A DNA stretch of 43,150 nucleotides from a virus. Positions 26,638 through 43,150 of the stretch are shown here, piece after piece; the first letter of the stretch is position 1; the number at the start of each line of letters is the position of its first letter. Under the pieces are notes generated by a model. It was not told the DNA's origin, did not search any database, and saw nothing but the letters and a program-made list of their open reading frames with translations. The stretch lies in IMG/VR virus record IMGVR_UViG_3300020000_000032, positions 1-43,150 of that record; one strand, given 5' to 3'. Position numbers and translations under genes: made by a program.

Positions 26638-26807
26638 TTGTAGGTCCTCCTGAAATGCATTTGCAGTGCCAGCACCGCCCAGACCATCATCACCAAGGCT
26701 GCCTGTCGGTGATCAGTGAACCAGCAGCCAAAGCTGAGGGTCAGAGAAATGACCACCTCGATGGTGGTCATCCTCTGGCTGGTACGGTAGGTGAAGTTGC
26801 TTTTCAT
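26634..26807 (-). CDS. Small membrane protein, 57 aa, one or two transmembrane helices
   Basis: ATG at 26807 overlaps the helicase stop and the TGA at 26634 overlaps the next ATG. TTIEVVISLTLSFGCWF and AALVMMVWAVLALQM are hydrophobic segments separated by TDHRQ, suggesting a hairpin in the membrane with charged ends. Together with the 38-aa gene two genes on, it gives two membrane peptides in one operon. Could be holin-like; no proof. Confidence 0.65.
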   Translation of the reverse strand: MKSNFTYRTSQRMTTIEVVISLTLSFGCWFTDHRQAALVMMVWAVLALQMHFRRTYK

Positions 26808-28465
26808 GCCGCACCCTCCTCAGTCATGGTGGTCATTACCGAGCCCGCCTGCGGCGCAAGAGAAATTTCAACCGGCTTCTGGGCGGGCTTCAGGTCGGCT
26901 GGCGTGGGCATTGGCACGTCAACCAGAACCTCTTGTGCCCTCGTTACGGCCACGTAGCAAAGGTTAATTTCCTGCTCCACCTGCCAGTCTTGCTTGGCGC
27001 GCGGGCTGGGCATGATTTCACCACGGCCCAGAATGTGCACCACCGGCCACTCCAACCCCTTGCTCTTGTGGACGCTGGACAGCACCACCATGTTGGCCGT
27101 CTGGCCCTCAAGGCCAATGTCAGCGAACATGCTCTCAACCATGGCCTGCATTTCAACCACCGTCTGAAGGCCGCGCTCACGGGCCCGCTCAAGCAGGCAG
27201 ATGATGGTGGCGTGCTTGTCTTCATGACGAGCCAGCTTGGCTTCATCAAGCTTGCCAGCGGCAGCCAGCTTGGCGCGCTCACGGGCATCCCACTTGGTCA
27301 GCTTGCCTTCAAAGGCGTCTAGGCCCTTGACCTTCCAGCGGCCGACCAGCGCCACCAGACCGGCACCAATCTCACGGCCCTCAATCTTGGCGGGCTTGCC
27401 TTCACGGATCAGGCGGAAGCAGAGTTCAACCAGCGGCGCATTGGTGCGGCACAGCACCGCCTGACCGGGCTCAATGGTGTCAAGCATCTGGCGGTAGGTA
27501 GCGCTGCGCACCACGCCCTCAGCGGCGGTAGGGGCTGCGTTGATGTGGCTGACGTACTCACGCGCCACCGCAACCACCGCCTGCGGGCAGCGCCAGCTGA
27601 CGCTGAGGCTCAGGGTCACCGCGTTGAACAGCTGGCGTATCAAATCCAGTGAGCGGTTGTCAGCGCCGGTAAACCCAAAAATCGCCTGATGCGGGTCACC
27701 AACGGCAACCAGACGGCCCGTGGGCTTCAGCATGCGCTTGGCGATCTCACGGCGCACGCCATTGGTGTCTTGCGCCTCATCAATCAGCACCCAGTCTTTG
27801 GTCCAGAAGCGCAGGTTGAGGAGCAGCGGCAAGTAGCACATATCATCAAAATCAACCACGGCACGGTTGGCGTTGCTCAGCGCCAGAGCGCGCTCGGCGG
27901 TGGCCACCAGCTGGCTGGGGTCAAAGTCATCAGGCAGGCGGTCAGCCACGTCATAGCGGTTGATCAGTTCAACCCAGAAGCGCGGCTGCACCACCGGCAC
28001 CAGACCCTTGACGCCAAAGCCCGTCTGCTTGGCAAGGCCGACCAGCTGGCAGATGGCGGTCACTTCACCGTCAACCGGCAGCCGCGCCGCAAACACGCCC
28101 TCATGGTTCTCAACCAGCGCGTCAACAATGTTGCGCACCTTCTTGTCATCAACGGTAACCTTGTCATTGGCCTTGCGCAGGGCGCTGAAGCCAGCGGAGT
28201 GGAACGTGGCAGCCATCTTGCTGTCAGGGCCGGTGCCGCTCAGGCCCATGGCGGTCAGGCGCGCCTTCAACTCAGCGCCCATCTTGGTGTTGTAGGCACC
28301 CAGAAACACAGTGCCGGGCATGCGCTTGACGCCCTCAACCAGCGTGGTGGTCTTGCCCGCGCCCGCAACGGCTTCAAGCACGCAAGAGCCCTTGCCCGTC
28401 TCAATCCAATCAAGAAACGCGGCCTGTTCAGCAGAGGGCGTGAAAACTTTGGTGGTGGTGGACAT
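26804..28465 (-). CDS. SF1 (UvrD/Rep-like) helicase, copy 1
   Basis: 553 residues. Q-motif and motif I: PSAEQAAFLDW and LEAVAGAGKTTTLVEG (Walker A GAGKTT); motif Ia NTKMGAELKARL; motif II WVLIDEAQDTN; motif III VAVGDPHQAIFGFTGAD; motif IV SVSWRCPQ; motif V VLSSVHKSKGLEWPVVHIL; motif VI NLCYVAVTRAQEVL. All catalytic residues appear intact. Acts as a 3'-5' DNA helicase in replication, repair or recombination. Transcribed from a leftward promoter at 28512-28540 with a hairpin in the leader; ribosome binding is weak (GGGG 8 nt upstream of ATG). Confidence 0.92.
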   Translation of the reverse strand: MSTTTKVFTPSAEQAAFLDWIETGKGSCVLEAVAGAGKTTTLVEGVKRMPGTVFLGAYNTKMGAELKARLTAMGLSGTGPDSKMAATFHSAGFSALRKANDKVTVDDKKVRNIVDALVENHEGVFAARLPVDGEVTAICQLVGLAKQTGFGVKGLVPVVQPRFWVELINRYDVADRLPDDFDPSQLVATAERALALSNANRAVVDFDDMCYLPLLLNLRFWTKDWVLIDEAQDTNGVRREIAKRMLKPTGRLVAVGDPHQAIFGFTGADNRSLDLIRQLFNAVTLSLSVSWRCPQAVVAVAREYVSHINAAPTAAEGVVRSATYRQMLDTIEPGQAVLCRTNAPLVELCFRLIREGKPAKIEGREIGAGLVALVGRWKVKGLDAFEGKLTKWDARERAKLAAAGKLDEAKLARHEDKHATIICLLERARERGLQTVVEMQAMVESMFADIGLEGQTANMVVLSSVHKSKGLEWPVVHILGRGEIMPSPRAKQDWQVEQEINLCYVAVTRAQEVLVDVPMPTPADLKPAQKPVEISLAPQAGSVMTTMTEEGAA

Positions 28466-31345: not shown

Positions 31346-31708
31346 TCAGGCTGTAGCCTCATCCTCAGTTACAGTCTCAGTCTCAACCTGCTTCTTGGCC
31401 TTGGCCTTCTTGGCCTTCTTGGCGGGCTTGGCCTTGGCCTTGGCCTTGGCCGCCTTCTTGGCCTTCTTGGGCTGGTCCTCACCGTTGGTGGTGATGCCGG
31501 GCCGCAGGCTGATGAAGTCCTTGCCCACATCATGGGCGATGTCTACCGCCAGCAGGCCCGCCGCCTTGGCTTCACGCACCGTCATGCCATCGCGGTAATA
31601 CTCAAACCGCCTGTGTGCCGCGCTGCCCTCACGCTTGGGGTTGTCTTCGGCCACCATGGTGATGATGTCGTTTTCATTGATGCGCTTGCGCGCCGTTGCA
31701 CTTACCAT
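31346..31708 (-). CDS. N-terminal NPK-GS-GMT module with histone H1-like Lys/Ala tail
   Basis: 120 residues, AGAGGA 9 nt before the ATG. Residues about 18-66 are the shared module (EDNPKREGSAAHRRFEYYRD, GMTVREAKAAGLLAVDI, VGKDFISL). Residues about 78-110 are a KA-repeat tail (AKKAAKAKAKAKPAKKAKKA), as in histone H1 C-termini and AlgP-type proteins; the last 12 residues are acidic. The coding DNA of the tail is a tandem repeat of the hexamer CTTGGC on the plus strand. Probable DNA-compacting or condensing protein. It has its own leftward promoter at 31810-31838. Confidence 0.8.
   Translation of the reverse strand: MVSATARKRINENDIITMVAEDNPKREGSAAHRRFEYYRDGMTVREAKAAGLLAVDIAHDVGKDFISLRPGITTNGEDQPKKAKKAAKAKAKAKPAKKAKKAKAKKQVETETVTEDEATA
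31385..31471 (-). repeat. Hexamer-based tandem repeat encoding the Lys/Ala tail
   Basis: The plus strand repeats CTTGGC/CTTCTTGGC units many times (minus strand GCCAAG), encoding the K-A-K tail of the gene at 31346-31708. Such tracts change length by slippage and recombination. Confidence 0.75.
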
Positions 31709-31840: not shown

Positions 31841-33352
31841 TTATAACTCATAACTCCGTTGATAGTTTCGTGCCCTGACTATCGTCAATTTTTGCTTGGC
31901 GCGGGTCACCGCCACATACCATGTGCGGGCCTCGTCATCTGGCAGGTATTTGGCTTCATCAAGCGTGCGCCACGCTATATCCAGCAGGATTACTACATGG
32001 TCCGCCTGTGCACCCTTGGCCCCGTGCATGGTGCTGATGCGTATCTTGGGGCGCTCGGTCAGCTTCTGGCCGCCCTGAAGCACCTTGACCATGTAGCTTT
32101 CTTCCTCAGGCTTTATGCGCCGCGTGAACGCCTTGCGCCAAAGGTCATCAGCCAGCAGCCCACCGGCTTCTTTCAGGTCCTGCATGGTCACCAGTTGGTC
32201 ACGGTCCTGCCATGCAGGCAGCTTCTTGTGGCCGCGCGCGTAGCCGGTGCCCGAACTCATTTCGTCATAAACCTTCTCAGCCTCATCAACCGTCACCTCA
32301 CCGCCACGCCGCAGGCGCTCCCACCACACAATGGCGTTGATCAGTGATTGCCGCACTGACGGGTTGTCATGATATTCATACAGGATGCCTTGCCGCTTCA
32401 GCATGGGTATCACCGGGTTCTGCAAGAACTGGGTGTTGCGGCTCAGGATCAGTGTATCCTCATTCACGTCTATGTCGGCGTTGTCCAGCAGGGCAACGTA
32501 CTCAACCGTGCCTTGGCCGTCACGCGGGGCCCATGCCTTGGCGCGCCGGTTCTTGATGCCGCCCACTATCCTGAGCGCTATGGTCTGCACCTCAGGCGGC
32601 ACCCGCCAGCTGTGGTCAAGCACTGTCACGTCACCCTGCAAGCCTATGAAATGCTCAACGGCGGCACCCGCCCAGCGGTAGATGGCTTGGTCATCATCAC
32701 CGGCCACCACCACGCGCCGCGCGCCTTTGGCCAGCTGGTCAACCACCTGCCATTGCAACAGGCTCAGGTCTTGCGCCTCATCAACAAACAGCACATCCAG
32801 CGGCACGTGGCCCTGCATGACAAATTTGGCCAGCATGTCGGTGTAGTCCAGCAGGCCGTAAGTGGTCTTGAACTTGACCAGCGCCTGAGAAATGAAATCC
32901 ACAACTGGCCATTGCGTATCATCACGGTTCTCAACGTGATCGTATTGTTCACGCAGGCTGACGCGCCGCACGCGGGCAAGGTTGTCTATGAACAGGCAGC
33001 GGTCACCCGTCTCAAAGCCAAAGGTGGTGCCGTCTTCCCATGATGTGTAATTGCTGAGCTTGTGTCCGCAATATTTAGCAAACTCCTGTAGCTTCTTGCC
33101 CTCAAACACTTCCTCATTCTTCATGCCCAGTGAGCGGAAGCACAGGCTGTGCAGGGTGCTGACCCACGGCAAGTCCTTGTCACCCAGCTTGAATTTGACC
33201 TTGGCCCGGTCTTTGGCCTCACGCGCGGCGCGCTTGGTGAATGAGACATAACCAATGCGTTTGGGGCTGGTCCCCCGGTCAAGCTCACTCTCCATCTGTT
33301 GAAGCAGATAGGTGGTCTTGCCGGTGCCGGGTGGGCCCAACACTATTTCCAT
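31841..33352 (-). CDS. SF1 (UvrD/PcrA-like) helicase, copy 2
   Basis: 503 residues. Motif I IVLGPPGTGKTTYLL; motif Ia GYVSFTKRAAREAKDRA; motif II DVLFVDEAQDLSLLQ; motif III VVAGDDDQAIYRWAGA; motif IV LDHSWRVP; motif V ISTMHGAKGAQADHVVILL; motif VI RTWYVAVTRAKQKL. All SF1A motifs are present. Sequence differs clearly from the helicase at 26804-28465, so it is not a recent duplicate. Lies downstream of the primase in the same leftward run, so it may be the replicative or primosomal helicase in the absence of a DnaB-like gene. The stop overlaps nothing; the next promoter is at 31810-31838. Confidence 0.92.
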   Translation of the reverse strand: MEIVLGPPGTGKTTYLLQQMESELDRGTSPKRIGYVSFTKRAAREAKDRAKVKFKLGDKDLPWVSTLHSLCFRSLGMKNEEVFEGKKLQEFAKYCGHKLSNYTSWEDGTTFGFETGDRCLFIDNLARVRRVSLREQYDHVENRDDTQWPVVDFISQALVKFKTTYGLLDYTDMLAKFVMQGHVPLDVLFVDEAQDLSLLQWQVVDQLAKGARRVVVAGDDDQAIYRWAGAAVEHFIGLQGDVTVLDHSWRVPPEVQTIALRIVGGIKNRRAKAWAPRDGQGTVEYVALLDNADIDVNEDTLILSRNTQFLQNPVIPMLKRQGILYEYHDNPSVRQSLINAIVWWERLRRGGEVTVDEAEKVYDEMSSGTGYARGHKKLPAWQDRDQLVTMQDLKEAGGLLADDLWRKAFTRRIKPEEESYMVKVLQGGQKLTERPKIRISTMHGAKGAQADHVVILLDIAWRTLDEAKYLPDDEARTWYVAVTRAKQKLTIVRARNYQRSYEL

Positions 33353-33787
33353 TCAATTCACGCTCACACCAAACATGCTGATATCCACCCTGACATAAGG
33401 CAAGCCGCCCGGCAGCATGTGCCATTTCTCACGTGGCGCGCAGAATGTCATCAGCCCGCTGGCAATGCCCAGCGCCACCAGCTTCTCAATGTCAGACATA
33501 TCTACCGACCAGATCACGCCATCACCGCGCTCAATCATGGCACCCACGCTGCCGCCTTCACCCACGTCGCTTCTAAAGCCTGCGGGCAGGCTCAGCAGCA
33601 TGCGGATGATTTCCTCACGGTAGCCGTGCAGCTTCTTGATGCTGAACGTGTGCCTCAGCAGCCAGCCTGTCACCTCAATGCGTTGCAGGCTGTTGCGCGT
33701 GCCCTCTGCCCGCCAGCACGCGCCATAGACGTGGTGCAGGCGGTCAGCGGTCAAATAGGCGTCACTGGTTGACGCGGGTGGGCTCAT
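33353..33787 (-). CDS. Conserved phage hypothetical protein, 144 aa
   Basis: Segments DRLHHVYGACWRAEGTRN, SIKKLHGYREEIIRMLLSLP, GGSVGAMIERGDGVIWSVD, EKLVALGIASGLM. The pattern is one I associate with uncharacterised proteins lying between primase and helicase genes in some phages. No catalytic motif identified. Start overlaps the primase gene end by 4 bp; stop touches the helicase start. Possibly a primase or helicase loader, from context alone. Confidence 0.65.
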   Translation of the reverse strand: MSPPASTSDAYLTADRLHHVYGACWRAEGTRNSLQRIEVTGWLLRHTFSIKKLHGYREEIIRMLLSLPAGFRSDVGEGGSVGAMIERGDGVIWSVDMSDIEKLVALGIASGLMTFCAPREKWHMLPGGLPYVRVDISMFGVSVN

Positions 33788-35361
33788 ATTGGGTCCTGCG
33801 CAGGTTCTTTGGGCGTGGGCGTCACGGTCTTGGCTGCAAACCCTCTAGGTACTGCCCAGACCCGTGTGCCCTTGCCATTCAGGTTGAAAAAACCACTCTC
33901 ACCGCCTATGGCGCGCAAGCGTGTAACCATCTGGCCACGCGTGTATATCTTGAAGTTAGCGTCGTTCAAGAACTTCTGCAAATCCTTTAACCTGAACCAA
34001 TATTTGTGTCGCTCAGCCTTCTCATCCTCATCATCAAGCCATGGCAGGCCCAGCAATATCTCCTCACGTGAATTGCTCTGCTTGTGGTTGTTGATGAAAT
34101 CATCCAGTATTTCAATGAACTGGCCGCCGTAGCCTACCTCCTCTGACACCTCTATCTTGTTCACTTCACGCAGGGCCTCCGCCAGAACAGCATCCCACGC
34201 CTGTTGTTTCATGCCCTCAAAGCGCATGTAAAAGCGATCTGTACACACCGTCTGGAAGTTGCGGTAATTGACCAGTTCCTGCGTGGTCAGTTCAATGCGG
34301 TGTTCACCAACATCCATAAACCACAGCGGCGGATCAGTAGGCAGCACGCTGAGCCCGCCTATGACGGGCATGCCATTGCTGCCTGAAGCCACGCCATGCT
34401 TGCGCGTGCGGCACAGGGCACTCTGGCAGACGGCTACGATTGGCTGTTTCTTGCAGGGGTAGAAATACTCCTTTGCTTTAAGGCTCCTGATGATATCGTT
34501 CATTTCACTATGTTCTAGTTGCGGGTCCACAAACTCAAGGTTCCAACGCCAAAGCTCTTTTTCCCAGCTGTTGGGGTATTTCTTCTTGGCAAAGATGCCA
34601 AAAGCCATCATGCCTTCGTTACGCGCACCTTGGGTCAGACCTACCTTGCTCAGGTGCTGCAAACAGGGTGGCCCATCCCTGAACTCAGCTTCTCTGCTGG
34701 TCACCTTCTCATTCTTGGTTGCTGTATGCTGCGCCGCCTGACCCAACCACAACGGGACGGCAGCCAGACGGTCACACTCATCCATAAATTCATCAGGCGT
34801 CATCGTGCCACCATCACGCCTGACGGCCCAGCGGGTGTCACCAAAATAGGGCATATTTATCCAGCTGCCCAAGTCACCGCGCTCAACCGCCACCTGTCGC
34901 TGCTTGGGGAATATCTCTGAGCCGCCATAACCCACCAAGGCTGACAGGCTCTGTAGCCCCATCTGCATGGCTGTGGCCGTAAGTCGCTTATTGAAAAATG
35001 CCCAGACATGGGCCCCGTCTGACTTTGAACGCGTGATGATTACCTGCGCACCTTCTTTATCAAGTTTCTTGTACAACGCGCTGATATCGACGCTATAATC
35101 ATCAATATCAATGGCTCCAAAACAACACTTGTTCTCAGCATCAATAGGGATAACCCCCAACGGCTTCTCACCGCTCAAATGCAGGCCCCAAAGATTATCC
35201 CAATCCAAACCCTTGCCACGTTTGGTTATCGCTGAAGATTTAATCTCAACCTTGCCCCCCAGTATTTCCGCTACGGCGGCATCCTTGTTGTAAAAACCAT
35301 AGGCTTCATGAAAGCCTTCAAACCGCCTCACAAAGCGGCTCACCAATTTAGGATCAGTCAT
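33784..35361 (-). CDS. Archaeo-eukaryotic-type primase (AEP, TOTE/PrimPol-like)
   Basis: 525 residues from ATG 35361 (AAAGGAAAAG upstream). The catalytic half shows CFGAIDIDDYSVD (the D-x-D metal site, about 81-92), VIITRSKSDGAHVWAFF (S-x-H motif, about 107-123), and IFPKQRQV with GSWINMPYFGDTR (third region). This order is characteristic of AEPs in the TOTE conflict-system/PrimPol group and many phage primases. C-terminal half includes a Cys-containing segment (YPCKKQPIVAVCQSALCRTR) suggesting a zinc-stabilised fold, and a wHTH-looking end (DLQKFLNDANFKIYTRGQ). Synthesises RNA or DNA primers. Neighbours: SSB-like candidate upstream, two helicases downstream. Confidence 0.85.
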   Translation of the reverse strand: MTDPKLVSRFVRRFEGFHEAYGFYNKDAAVAEILGGKVEIKSSAITKRGKGLDWDNLWGLHLSGEKPLGVIPIDAENKCCFGAIDIDDYSVDISALYKKLDKEGAQVIITRSKSDGAHVWAFFNKRLTATAMQMGLQSLSALVGYGGSEIFPKQRQVAVERGDLGSWINMPYFGDTRWAVRRDGGTMTPDEFMDECDRLAAVPLWLGQAAQHTATKNEKVTSREAEFRDGPPCLQHLSKVGLTQGARNEGMMAFGIFAKKKYPNSWEKELWRWNLEFVDPQLEHSEMNDIIRSLKAKEYFYPCKKQPIVAVCQSALCRTRKHGVASGSNGMPVIGGLSVLPTDPPLWFMDVGEHRIELTTQELVNYRNFQTVCTDRFYMRFEGMKQQAWDAVLAEALREVNKIEVSEEVGYGGQFIEILDDFINNHKQSNSREEILLGLPWLDDEDEKAERHKYWFRLKDLQKFLNDANFKIYTRGQMVTRLRAIGGESGFFNLNGKGTRVWAVPRGFAAKTVTPTPKEPAQDPI

Positions 35362-35406
35362 CACTTTTCCTTTCGGGGCTTAAAGGGGCGTACTTGGTGT
35401 TCGCTG

Positions 35407-41707: not shown

Positions 41708-41947
41708 ATGTCAGCCAAGGTCATACCAATCACCGCCACGCGCAAGCTGATACAGGAGCATCATACCGGTGGCAAAGGCGGCAGGCATAGGGTTGACCGG
41801 CATAGCATCAAGGAACTGGCCAAGCGCGCCAACCTGACGCCCACCACGGTGTCACGCATCATGAACCGTGAGACGCGCAGCCCGCGCATGCTCACCTGCA
41901 TCATGCTGTTCAAGGCGCTGGGGTTCACCGCAGTCAGGTTTGAATAA
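41708..41947 (+). CDS. XRE/Cro-type helix-turn-helix regulator, 79 aa
   Basis: Start at ATG 41708 (AAGGGGG 6-8 nt upstream). IKELAKRANLTPTTVSRIMNR (about 36-56; IKELAKRANL as first helix and TPTTVSRIMN as recognition helix) is a classical lambda-repressor-like HTH, with a hydrophobic end TCIMLFKALGFTAVRF. The basic N-terminal 35 residues may contact DNA. Being the last gene before the secreted proteins, it may control them or the GTGATAA arrays; no proof. Confidence 0.85.
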   Translation: MSAKVIPITATRKLIQEHHTGGKGGRHRVDRHSIKELAKRANLTPTTVSRIMNRETRSPRMLTCIMLFKALGFTAVRFE

Positions 41948-42056: not shown

Positions 42057-42818
42057 ATGAAAACCATATTGGGGACAGCAGCCCTGTTGCTTCTGCTGGG
42101 CATGGGTGCGGCCAACGCAGCCACCGTCACGCTCGGCGGTCAGAACTGGACATTGGGCGGCACTACCTTGGGGCTGGTGGCGACGCCAACGCCCACCGCC
42201 AATCAGCCGAAGGATGCACCGTGCCTTATCTGCGGCGGCGCTCAGCCACAGCAGCCAGCCAACTTTGGCTACAATGACTTCGGCAACACCGGCAACCAGA
42301 CGGACTTGGCGTTCTTCTCGTCTGGCATCTTCAAGGATCATCTTGCCGGTGACACCATCGGCACGGCGTACACGTTTGGCACGCTGAGCAACTACCTGCT
42401 GGGCATGAACGACCCAACCCTGACCTTCAGCATTGGTGTTGACATGAACGACACCAACAAGGCGCAGACGCTGGAAAGCTTCTTCTTTCTGGACCTGACC
42501 ACGCACACCGTGTTGGCGTCATACTCACCGGGGCCGGGTGGCACGGAGTTGCCATCCATCCACAACGGCACCGGCTATGCCGACTACCTGCTGACCGGCG
42601 CGTCACTGGCGGGCGTCAACGTGGGTGACCAGCTGCTGTTCTACTCACGCATCAGCGGCGCAAATGACGGGCCTGACAGCTTCTTTCTCGTAGCGCAGCC
42701 CAATGCAGTGCCGCTGCCTGCGGGCCTGTGGCTGTTTGGCACGGCCATTGCCGGGCTGGGCGCTTTCAAGGCCAAGGCCCGGCTGAAAGCCCGCAACACC
42801 AATCTCACCACGGCTTGA
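42057..42818 (+). CDS. Secreted protein with VPLPA-CTERM sorting signal
   Basis: 253 residues. N-terminal signal peptide ILGTAALLLLLGMGAANAA with Ala-x-Ala cleavage about residue 21. The mature domain is Gly/Thr/Asn-rich (GNTGNQTDLAFFSSGIF, TFSIGVDMNDTNKAQ, GPDSFFLVAQP), typical of PEP-CTERM surface proteins, with a Cys pair CLIC. The C-terminus has the tripartite sorting signal: NAVPLPAGLWLFGTAIAGLG (motif, transmembrane helix) and a basic tail KAKARLKAR. In bacteria an exosortase (EpsH/XrtA type) recognises such signals and links the protein to extracellular matrix or outer surface. It is the first of two adjacent secreted genes at the end of the window. Such a signal on a phage genome is unusual. 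Confidence 0.9.
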   Translation: MKTILGTAALLLLLGMGAANAATVTLGGQNWTLGGTTLGLVATPTPTANQPKDAPCLICGGAQPQQPANFGYNDFGNTGNQTDLAFFSSGIFKDHLAGDTIGTAYTFGTLSNYLLGMNDPTLTFSIGVDMNDTNKAQTLESFFFLDLTTHTVLASYSPGPGGTELPSIHNGTGYADYLLTGASLAGVNVGDQLLFYSRISGANDGPDSFFLVAQPNAVPLPAGLWLFGTAIAGLGAFKAKARLKARNTNLTTA

Positions 42819-42837
42819 TCAGGCCGTAGTGAGGTAA

Positions 42838-42877
42838 GGGCGGCCCCCCTTTATGTCCAGAAGGGCCGCCCTATTTT
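42838..42877 (+). terminator. Terminator between the two secreted-protein genes
   Basis: GGGCGGCCC/GGGCCGCCC (42838-42846 with 42863-42871), long loop, then TATTTT (42872-42877). The second gene starts 36 nt later, so it needs its own promoter or read-through. Confidence 0.75.
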
Positions 42878-42912
42878 CTACCCTGCAACTACCAACTCAT
42901 GAGGTTAACCTA

Positions 42913-43150
42913 ATGCGCAAATATCTTGTAACTGTGGCCGCAGCCGCCGTGTTGGCGTTTGCGGCTAGCCCCGGCAAGGCCGCTGTCATCAACGACCTTG
43001 GCGTCAACCCGACCAGTGCCCAAGGCGCTTTCAAGAACTCGGTGGGCGGCACCAGCTTCACCGATCAGTATCTGTTCCAGCTGGCCAATGCCCAGAACTT
43101 TCTGACCATTGCCAGCGTCACCAACGTCTACCCCAAAGTCACCGACTTCA
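42913..43150 (+). CDS. Second secreted PEP-CTERM-like protein, N-terminal part (cut by window end)
   Basis: Open to the window edge; 79 residues are visible. GAGG 8 nt before the ATG. A clear signal peptide (YLVTVAAAAVLAFAASPGKA, cleavage near A-x-A) is followed by GVNPTSAQGAFKNSVGGTSF and TDQYLFQLANAQNFLTIASV. The F-x-D-x-Y-x-F-x-L pattern is common at the start of PEP-CTERM domain proteins. The C-terminal sorting signal, if present, is beyond the window, so the class is inferred from the N-terminal pattern and from its neighbour. Confidence 0.75.
   Translation, partial: MRKYLVTVAAAAVLAFAASPGKAAVINDLGVNPTSAQGAFKNSVGGTSFTDQYLFQLANAQNFLTIASVTNVYPKVTDF

Follow-up and report, generated by a model that had tools for sequence, protein, structure and literature searches.

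A secreted protein of unrelated phages with a conserved body and swapped exosortase-type sorting signals

Introduction

Why would a phage encode a secreted protein that ends in a sorting signal of the kind read by bacterial exosortases? Sorting by exosortases is found widely among Gram-negative bacteria of the environment, yet to our knowledge the purpose of most of its substrates is not known. The question is raised by the right end of a 43,150-base virus record in IMG/VR (hereafter the window, i.e., the whole stretch of DNA that was analyzed), where an earlier note had described two tandem secreted proteins, the first with a VPLPA-CTERM signal, and had added that it knew of no phage system using such signals. 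This last remark agrees with our keyword search of open papers, a search that largely excludes subscription papers and preprints and that retrieved no phage PEP-CTERM system. The observation of a CTERM-tagged secreted protein on a phage holds and is larger than first stated: our main result is a conserved protein body, found in unrelated phages, whose sorting signal has been swapped.

Results

The window phage and its two secreted proteins

The window encodes a terminase, ribonucleotide reductase, DNA polymerase, thymidylate synthase, primase and helicases. Its terminase is closest to those of Brevundimonas phages (48%) and its polymerase to those of Pelagibacter phages (ca. 35%), neither of which is decisive for the host. 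Its closest relative is contig L002 (30 kb), with most shared proteins 91% to 98% identical. Among its other features are a primase with the AEP domain of the TOTE conflict system (33784-35364; Pfam PF22548) in the replication module, two separate UvrD-like helicase genes that both match PHROG 1967 (26804-28465 and 31841-33352) and an imperfect tandem repeat of 39 bases with abundant GCC, CTT and GGC (31394-31471). The right end is organized as follows:

41708..41947, + strand: small HTH_3 protein, possible regulator, directly upstream of the first secreted-protein gene (Pfam HTH_3, 29.3 bits; cut-off 23)
42057..42818, + strand: coding sequence of the first secreted protein, 253 aa, phage ectodomain plus VPLPA-CTERM sorting signal (TIGR03370 match; dN/dS 0.15 against L002)
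42057..42119, + strand: N-terminal signal peptide MKTILGTAALLLLLGMGAANA (from sequence and hydropathy; cleavage after ANA placed by eye)
42222..42233, + strand: CxxC motif (C56-x-x-C59), invariant in a 27-member alignment
42666..42686, + strand: DGPDSFF, the invariant end of the ectodomain, directly beyond which the signal classes diverge
42708..42782, + strand: VPLPA-CTERM signal with Pro-x-Pro motif, hydrophobic helix and start of the basic tail (TIGR03370, above cut-off)
42838..42871, + strand: terminator-like, GC-rich hairpin between both genes, with TATTTTCT behind it (z -2.94; 0 of 200 shuffles as stable)
42913..43149, + strand: first 79 codons of the gene for the second secreted protein, which runs off the contig end (L002:6844-7413 is a complete copy with a sorting-type tail)

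The first protein, with the tail AVPLPAGLWLFGTAIAGLGAFKAKARLKAR, matches the NCBIfam model TIGR03370 (VPLPA-CTERM) over residues 218 to 242 of 253 at 27.6 bits as a whole protein and 32 bits when the genome was searched, above the curated cut-off of 25.35 bits; the description of a signal peptide joined to a complete sorting signal is thus confirmed. Its score against Pfam PEP-CTERM stayed under the cut-off. As the earlier note had proposed, a putative regulator of the XRE type precedes the secreted genes, namely the HTH_3 protein, and the proposed terminator between the two genes corresponds to a terminator-like hairpin more stable than all 200 shuffles, though the terminator scan, with its loop limit of 8, did not list it. 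For the strong leader hairpin proposed ahead of the first gene, stability does not exceed the chance level (z -0.43).

The second protein starts at 42913, not 42853, and its C-terminus lies beyond the window end. In L002, the complete protein, 99% identical across the shared 79 aa, ends in the sorting-type sequence AVPIPAALPLFGTALGGLFLLKKKHRARKG (tail also given as VPIPAALPLFGTALGGLFLLKKKHRARKG). A second protein lacking any sorting signal, which together with the lack of an exosortase in every candidate host would have told against the initial proposal, is therefore not what its L002 relative presents. The assignment of this protein to the CTERM type stands as far as the C-terminus of that copy is concerned, but its scores fall below curated cut-offs, with 19.3 bits for the L002 tail against TIGR03370 and 40.4 bits for the protein against NF038126 (FxDxF PEP-CTERM; cut-off 50). 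A viral scan with the second protein matched its own contig only and a plasmid scan gave no match. A distant relative, found via its neighborhood, lies beside a main-family member at L009:7422-7967, and its tail VPGPTVGSFNIASIVGLFK looks incomplete.

Unrelated phages share the first protein

Relatives of the first protein, matching outside its tail, were found in 193 viral contigs by a single-protein search and in 207 IMG/VR contigs with the 27-member alignment. The carriers are unrelated phages, many of them from soil. Among thirty window proteins tested, the first protein is the only one common to L003, L006, L007, L015 and L052 (one of them also shares a distant helicase), and four of these five contigs have terminal repeats of 123 to 127 bases, typical of circular assemblies. 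No relatives were present in 50,697 INPHARED phage records or 72,556 plasmids. Across 84,980 bacterial and archaeal species genomes (one genome per species, with soil under-sampled), the alignment search detected no relative of the ectodomain, and 90 stretches matched a short pattern. Host matches in 398 genomes of the phylum were limited to the tail and the residues next to it (profile positions 166 to 245) and never reached the main ectodomain; since no more than six candidates were scored in each of these genomes, the larger search is the stronger negative.

The gene lies in varying places. In L003, it starts 27 bases past the terminase gene and ahead of head and portal genes; a portal gene follows it in L030; and in L012, it is near a tail-fiber gene. 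That the right end of the window could be host chromosome, which the earlier note had named as one finding that would overturn it, or a misassembly draws on the position of the gene at a contig end and on the abundance of PEP-CTERM genes in many environmental Gram-negative bacteria. This explanation is ruled out by the 207 viral contigs, including circular ones, by flanking terminase, head, portal or lysis genes and by the searches of bacterial genomes, in which the ectodomain was not found. In addition, L002 runs on beyond the second secreted gene into a gene for a protein of 1887 aa that matches a phage protein family. We regard the probability of a host or assembly origin as negligible.

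The location inside head and packaging clusters of some phages could also indicate a virion component. However, the Sec signal peptide would export the protein from the cytoplasm, where tailed dsDNA phages assemble, and the first protein has no PHROG match. Of the functions suggested, virion display is the least likely, and we give it very little credence.

A single mobile cargo gene that moves across unrelated phages and, in the window, has its own terminator-like hairpin at the 3' side also resembles a moron that benefits the infected or carrier cell, e.g., by surface coating or attachment, via lysogeny or pseudolysogeny. That it was not found in the 84,980 species genomes, where prophages would show, speaks against such a role, as do the lytic-type replication genes of the window phage and the position directly behind the terminase gene in L003, and we consider a moron unlikely.

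Two further, unrelated phage protein families with VPLPA-type signals were located near the main gene in other phage contigs (L022:9221-9757 and L057:11065-11613 on the minus strand; L077 and L078:10817-11524). The CTERM cargo of phages thus extends beyond a single family.

One ectodomain with several signal classes

The architecture is highly consistent across the family. A hydrophobic segment and three or more basic residues occur in each of the 81 tails inspected, the Pro-x-Pro pattern was recognized by script in 80 of them and by eye in the remaining one, and a hydrophobic N-terminal segment is present in 80/81 members, the exception being truncated at a contig end. A tail test was passed by 69 of 71 family members against 7 of 856 neighboring phage ORFs, and three of those seven are further CTERM proteins.

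On this one ectodomain we distinguish the tail classes VPLPA/WLF, VPGPxxGAG, PEPxxWA and TPLPAS, assigned by pattern and by eye. The VPLPA/WLF class comprises the window, L002 and L045, and about half of the distinct members belong to the VPGPxxGAG class, for which no curated model exists. The tail of L014 passes the PEPxxWA-CTERM model (NCBIfam NF035944) with 38.9 bits at a cut-off of 35. On a tree of 56 ectodomains, built with the tails left out, the signal class switches at least 11 times, and the four main classes by themselves already require nine switches. The window and L002 (VPLPAGLWLFG), for example, fall into a fully supported clade (100/99) with L003 to L005 (VPGPxxGAG), at ca. 70% ectodomain identity.

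A conserved beta-rich domain

Values of dN/dS between 0.07 and 0.17 reveal strong purifying selection in the family, and around 40 positions are invariant in the 27-member alignment, including the CxxC pair, NGTG and DGPDSFF. AlphaFold2 models the protein with confidence (pLDDT 85) as a domain rich in beta structure with a helix at the C-terminus. Its ectodomain fold has no structural match in PDB or BFVD at E 0.001 or better, its sequence has no match in PDB, and no enzyme domain was found in the family protein. Without a significant structural match, the model gives no pointer to the activity of the ectodomain.

These results bear on a different job for the same exosortase-sorted protein, i.e., loosening or remodeling exopolysaccharide or biofilm for the escape or spread of progeny, or a role at the envelope during lysis. 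Exosortase substrates have been linked to exopolysaccharide and the formation of flocs (PMC1569441, PMC9850573), the family gene directly follows the endolysin gene in L017, and it is near large genes with peptidoglycan-cutting domains in L010 and L016. A dedicated release function fits less well with the widely varying gene positions, such as terminase and head genes in L003 or the portal gene in L030, and with a predicted structure that has neither an enzyme domain nor a significant enzyme match. We judge this role to be rather unlikely.

Host proteins with the same signals and a candidate exosortase

Bacterial proteins with near-identical tails were found by a query composed of three tail classes, and the percent identities obtained refer to this composite and not to real sequences. 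Its TPLPAS part is not an exact phage sequence, and the matches of this part in Nitrospira, Desulfobulbaceae and Acidobacteria assign no host to the TPLPAS class. A comparison of real phage and bacterial sequences is provided by the VPGPxxGAG tail of phage L063 and the protein L103 of a Bradyrhizobium metagenome-assembled genome (MAG), which agree in 29/30 residues, 12/30 third codon positions and 69/90 bases. Such agreement in the protein with so few shared third positions argues for a match that is kept by protein-level selection and is not a fresh copy, as would be expected if one enzyme reads both tails.

The Bradyrhizobium MAG carries nine VPGP-type tails. It gave no match to the Pfam exosortase model (PF09721), and its exosortase/archaeosortase family protein surfaced with the broader TIGR04178 model, above the cut-off and on the same contig as two VPGPxxGAG proteins. 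This divergent protein (L188:110-1093; contig C491 of G050) is a candidate enzyme for the VPGPxxGAG class. Exosortases are characterized by conserved Cys, NxxR and HxxxG motifs (PMC1569441), and the candidate has PCSS, NVTRI and HNQWG as fitting counterparts. It adjoins a protein that, by eye, resembles a polysaccharide chain-length regulator. The link between VPGPxxGAG tails and this exosortase is their co-occurrence in one Bradyrhizobium MAG; other Bradyrhizobium genomes sampled have few or no VPGP-type tails, and a second genome with six tails gave no exosortase match.

Pfam exosortases are present in six of seven bacterial genomes with tails like those of the phage family. A search for exosortases, which the earlier note had suggested for this genome, found no Pfam match in 49 phage contigs, which is what would be expected if the phages borrow the enzyme of their host.

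Phage signals that mimic those of the host almost exactly are also what a competitor would need, and the phage protein might thus be a decoy that jams the host exosortase and leaves host surface proteins, possibly including receptors, unsorted. A decoy would require the tail alone, whereas here the ectodomain itself is conserved, with its invariant positions and strong purifying selection, and the Pro-x-Pro motif is intact. The conservation of the ectodomain renders a decoy role highly improbable.

Discussion

Probable sorting by a host exosortase

We consider it likely that the phage cargo protein is an exosortase substrate that the host exosortase takes to the surface or matrix of the infected cell. 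The protein would be exported by the host Sec machinery during infection and anchored in the inner membrane by its C-terminal helix and basic tail. The host exosortase would then read the Pro-x-Pro motif, cut and hand the protein over to the outer surface or extracellular matrix, where the beta-rich ectodomain with its CxxC motif is predicted to act outside the cell. We infer this processing from the sequences, which point to it strongly. Each phage would carry the signal class that is read by its own host, and the same ectodomain would be fused to different signal classes because the exosortase belongs to the host. With somewhat less confidence, we favor the broader proposal that tailed phages of many lineages hijack host exosortases for surface display and adapt to hosts by swapping the C-terminal signal only.

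What the displayed protein does is speculative. It may mask or alter the surface or exopolysaccharide of the infected cell so that further phages and progeny skip doomed cells and debris, a tentative idea to which we give slightly less than even weight. Such a block of adsorption is a guess by analogy with other secreted phage proteins, and matrix remodeling is its main alternative.

A family of phage substrates that matches host signals in protein but not in third codon positions constitutes independent evidence for a dedicated enzyme that reads these signals, and one protein in which signals have been swapped many times in nature is material for testing exosortase specificity. The VPGPxxGAG class gains a candidate enzyme in the Bradyrhizobium MAG. 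The family also suggests a route by which phages may control the surface of infected cells, and, if host-matched swapping is true, the host range of a phage could be read from its signal class.

Comparison with known systems

A single-gene transcription unit, with an upstream sigma-54 site in Proteobacteria, is a trait expected of PEP-CTERM/exosortase substrates. The phage protein resembles substrates of the PEP-CTERM/exosortase (EpsH) system and its VPLPA-CTERM subclass TIGR03370 (Haft et al. 2006, PMC1569441) in having a signal peptide, a Pro-x-Pro motif, a hydrophobic helix, a basic tail and a body without known homologs. Unlike those substrates, it is encoded by phages, whose contigs gave no exosortase match, and one conserved body is combined with several signal classes; the bodies of host substrates are diverse. 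PEPxxWA-CTERM (NF035944) is found on the same ectodomain in members such as L014, and the window protein belongs to another class.

The lipoproteins Llp of phage T5 and Cor of lambdoid phages are phage-encoded surface proteins for superinfection exclusion. Like these, the protein described here is a small secreted phage protein expected at the outer surface of the host, which makes them our working analogy, with no sequence relation claimed; they take the lipoprotein route, and our family has an exosortase-type signal instead. Gram-positive prophages, in turn, encode LPXTG proteins that are sorted by the host sortase and thus represent phage proteins that borrow a host sorting enzyme via a tripartite C-terminal signal. 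The family described here would do so with an unrelated enzyme, in the Gram-negative envelope and with signals that are swapped between classes.
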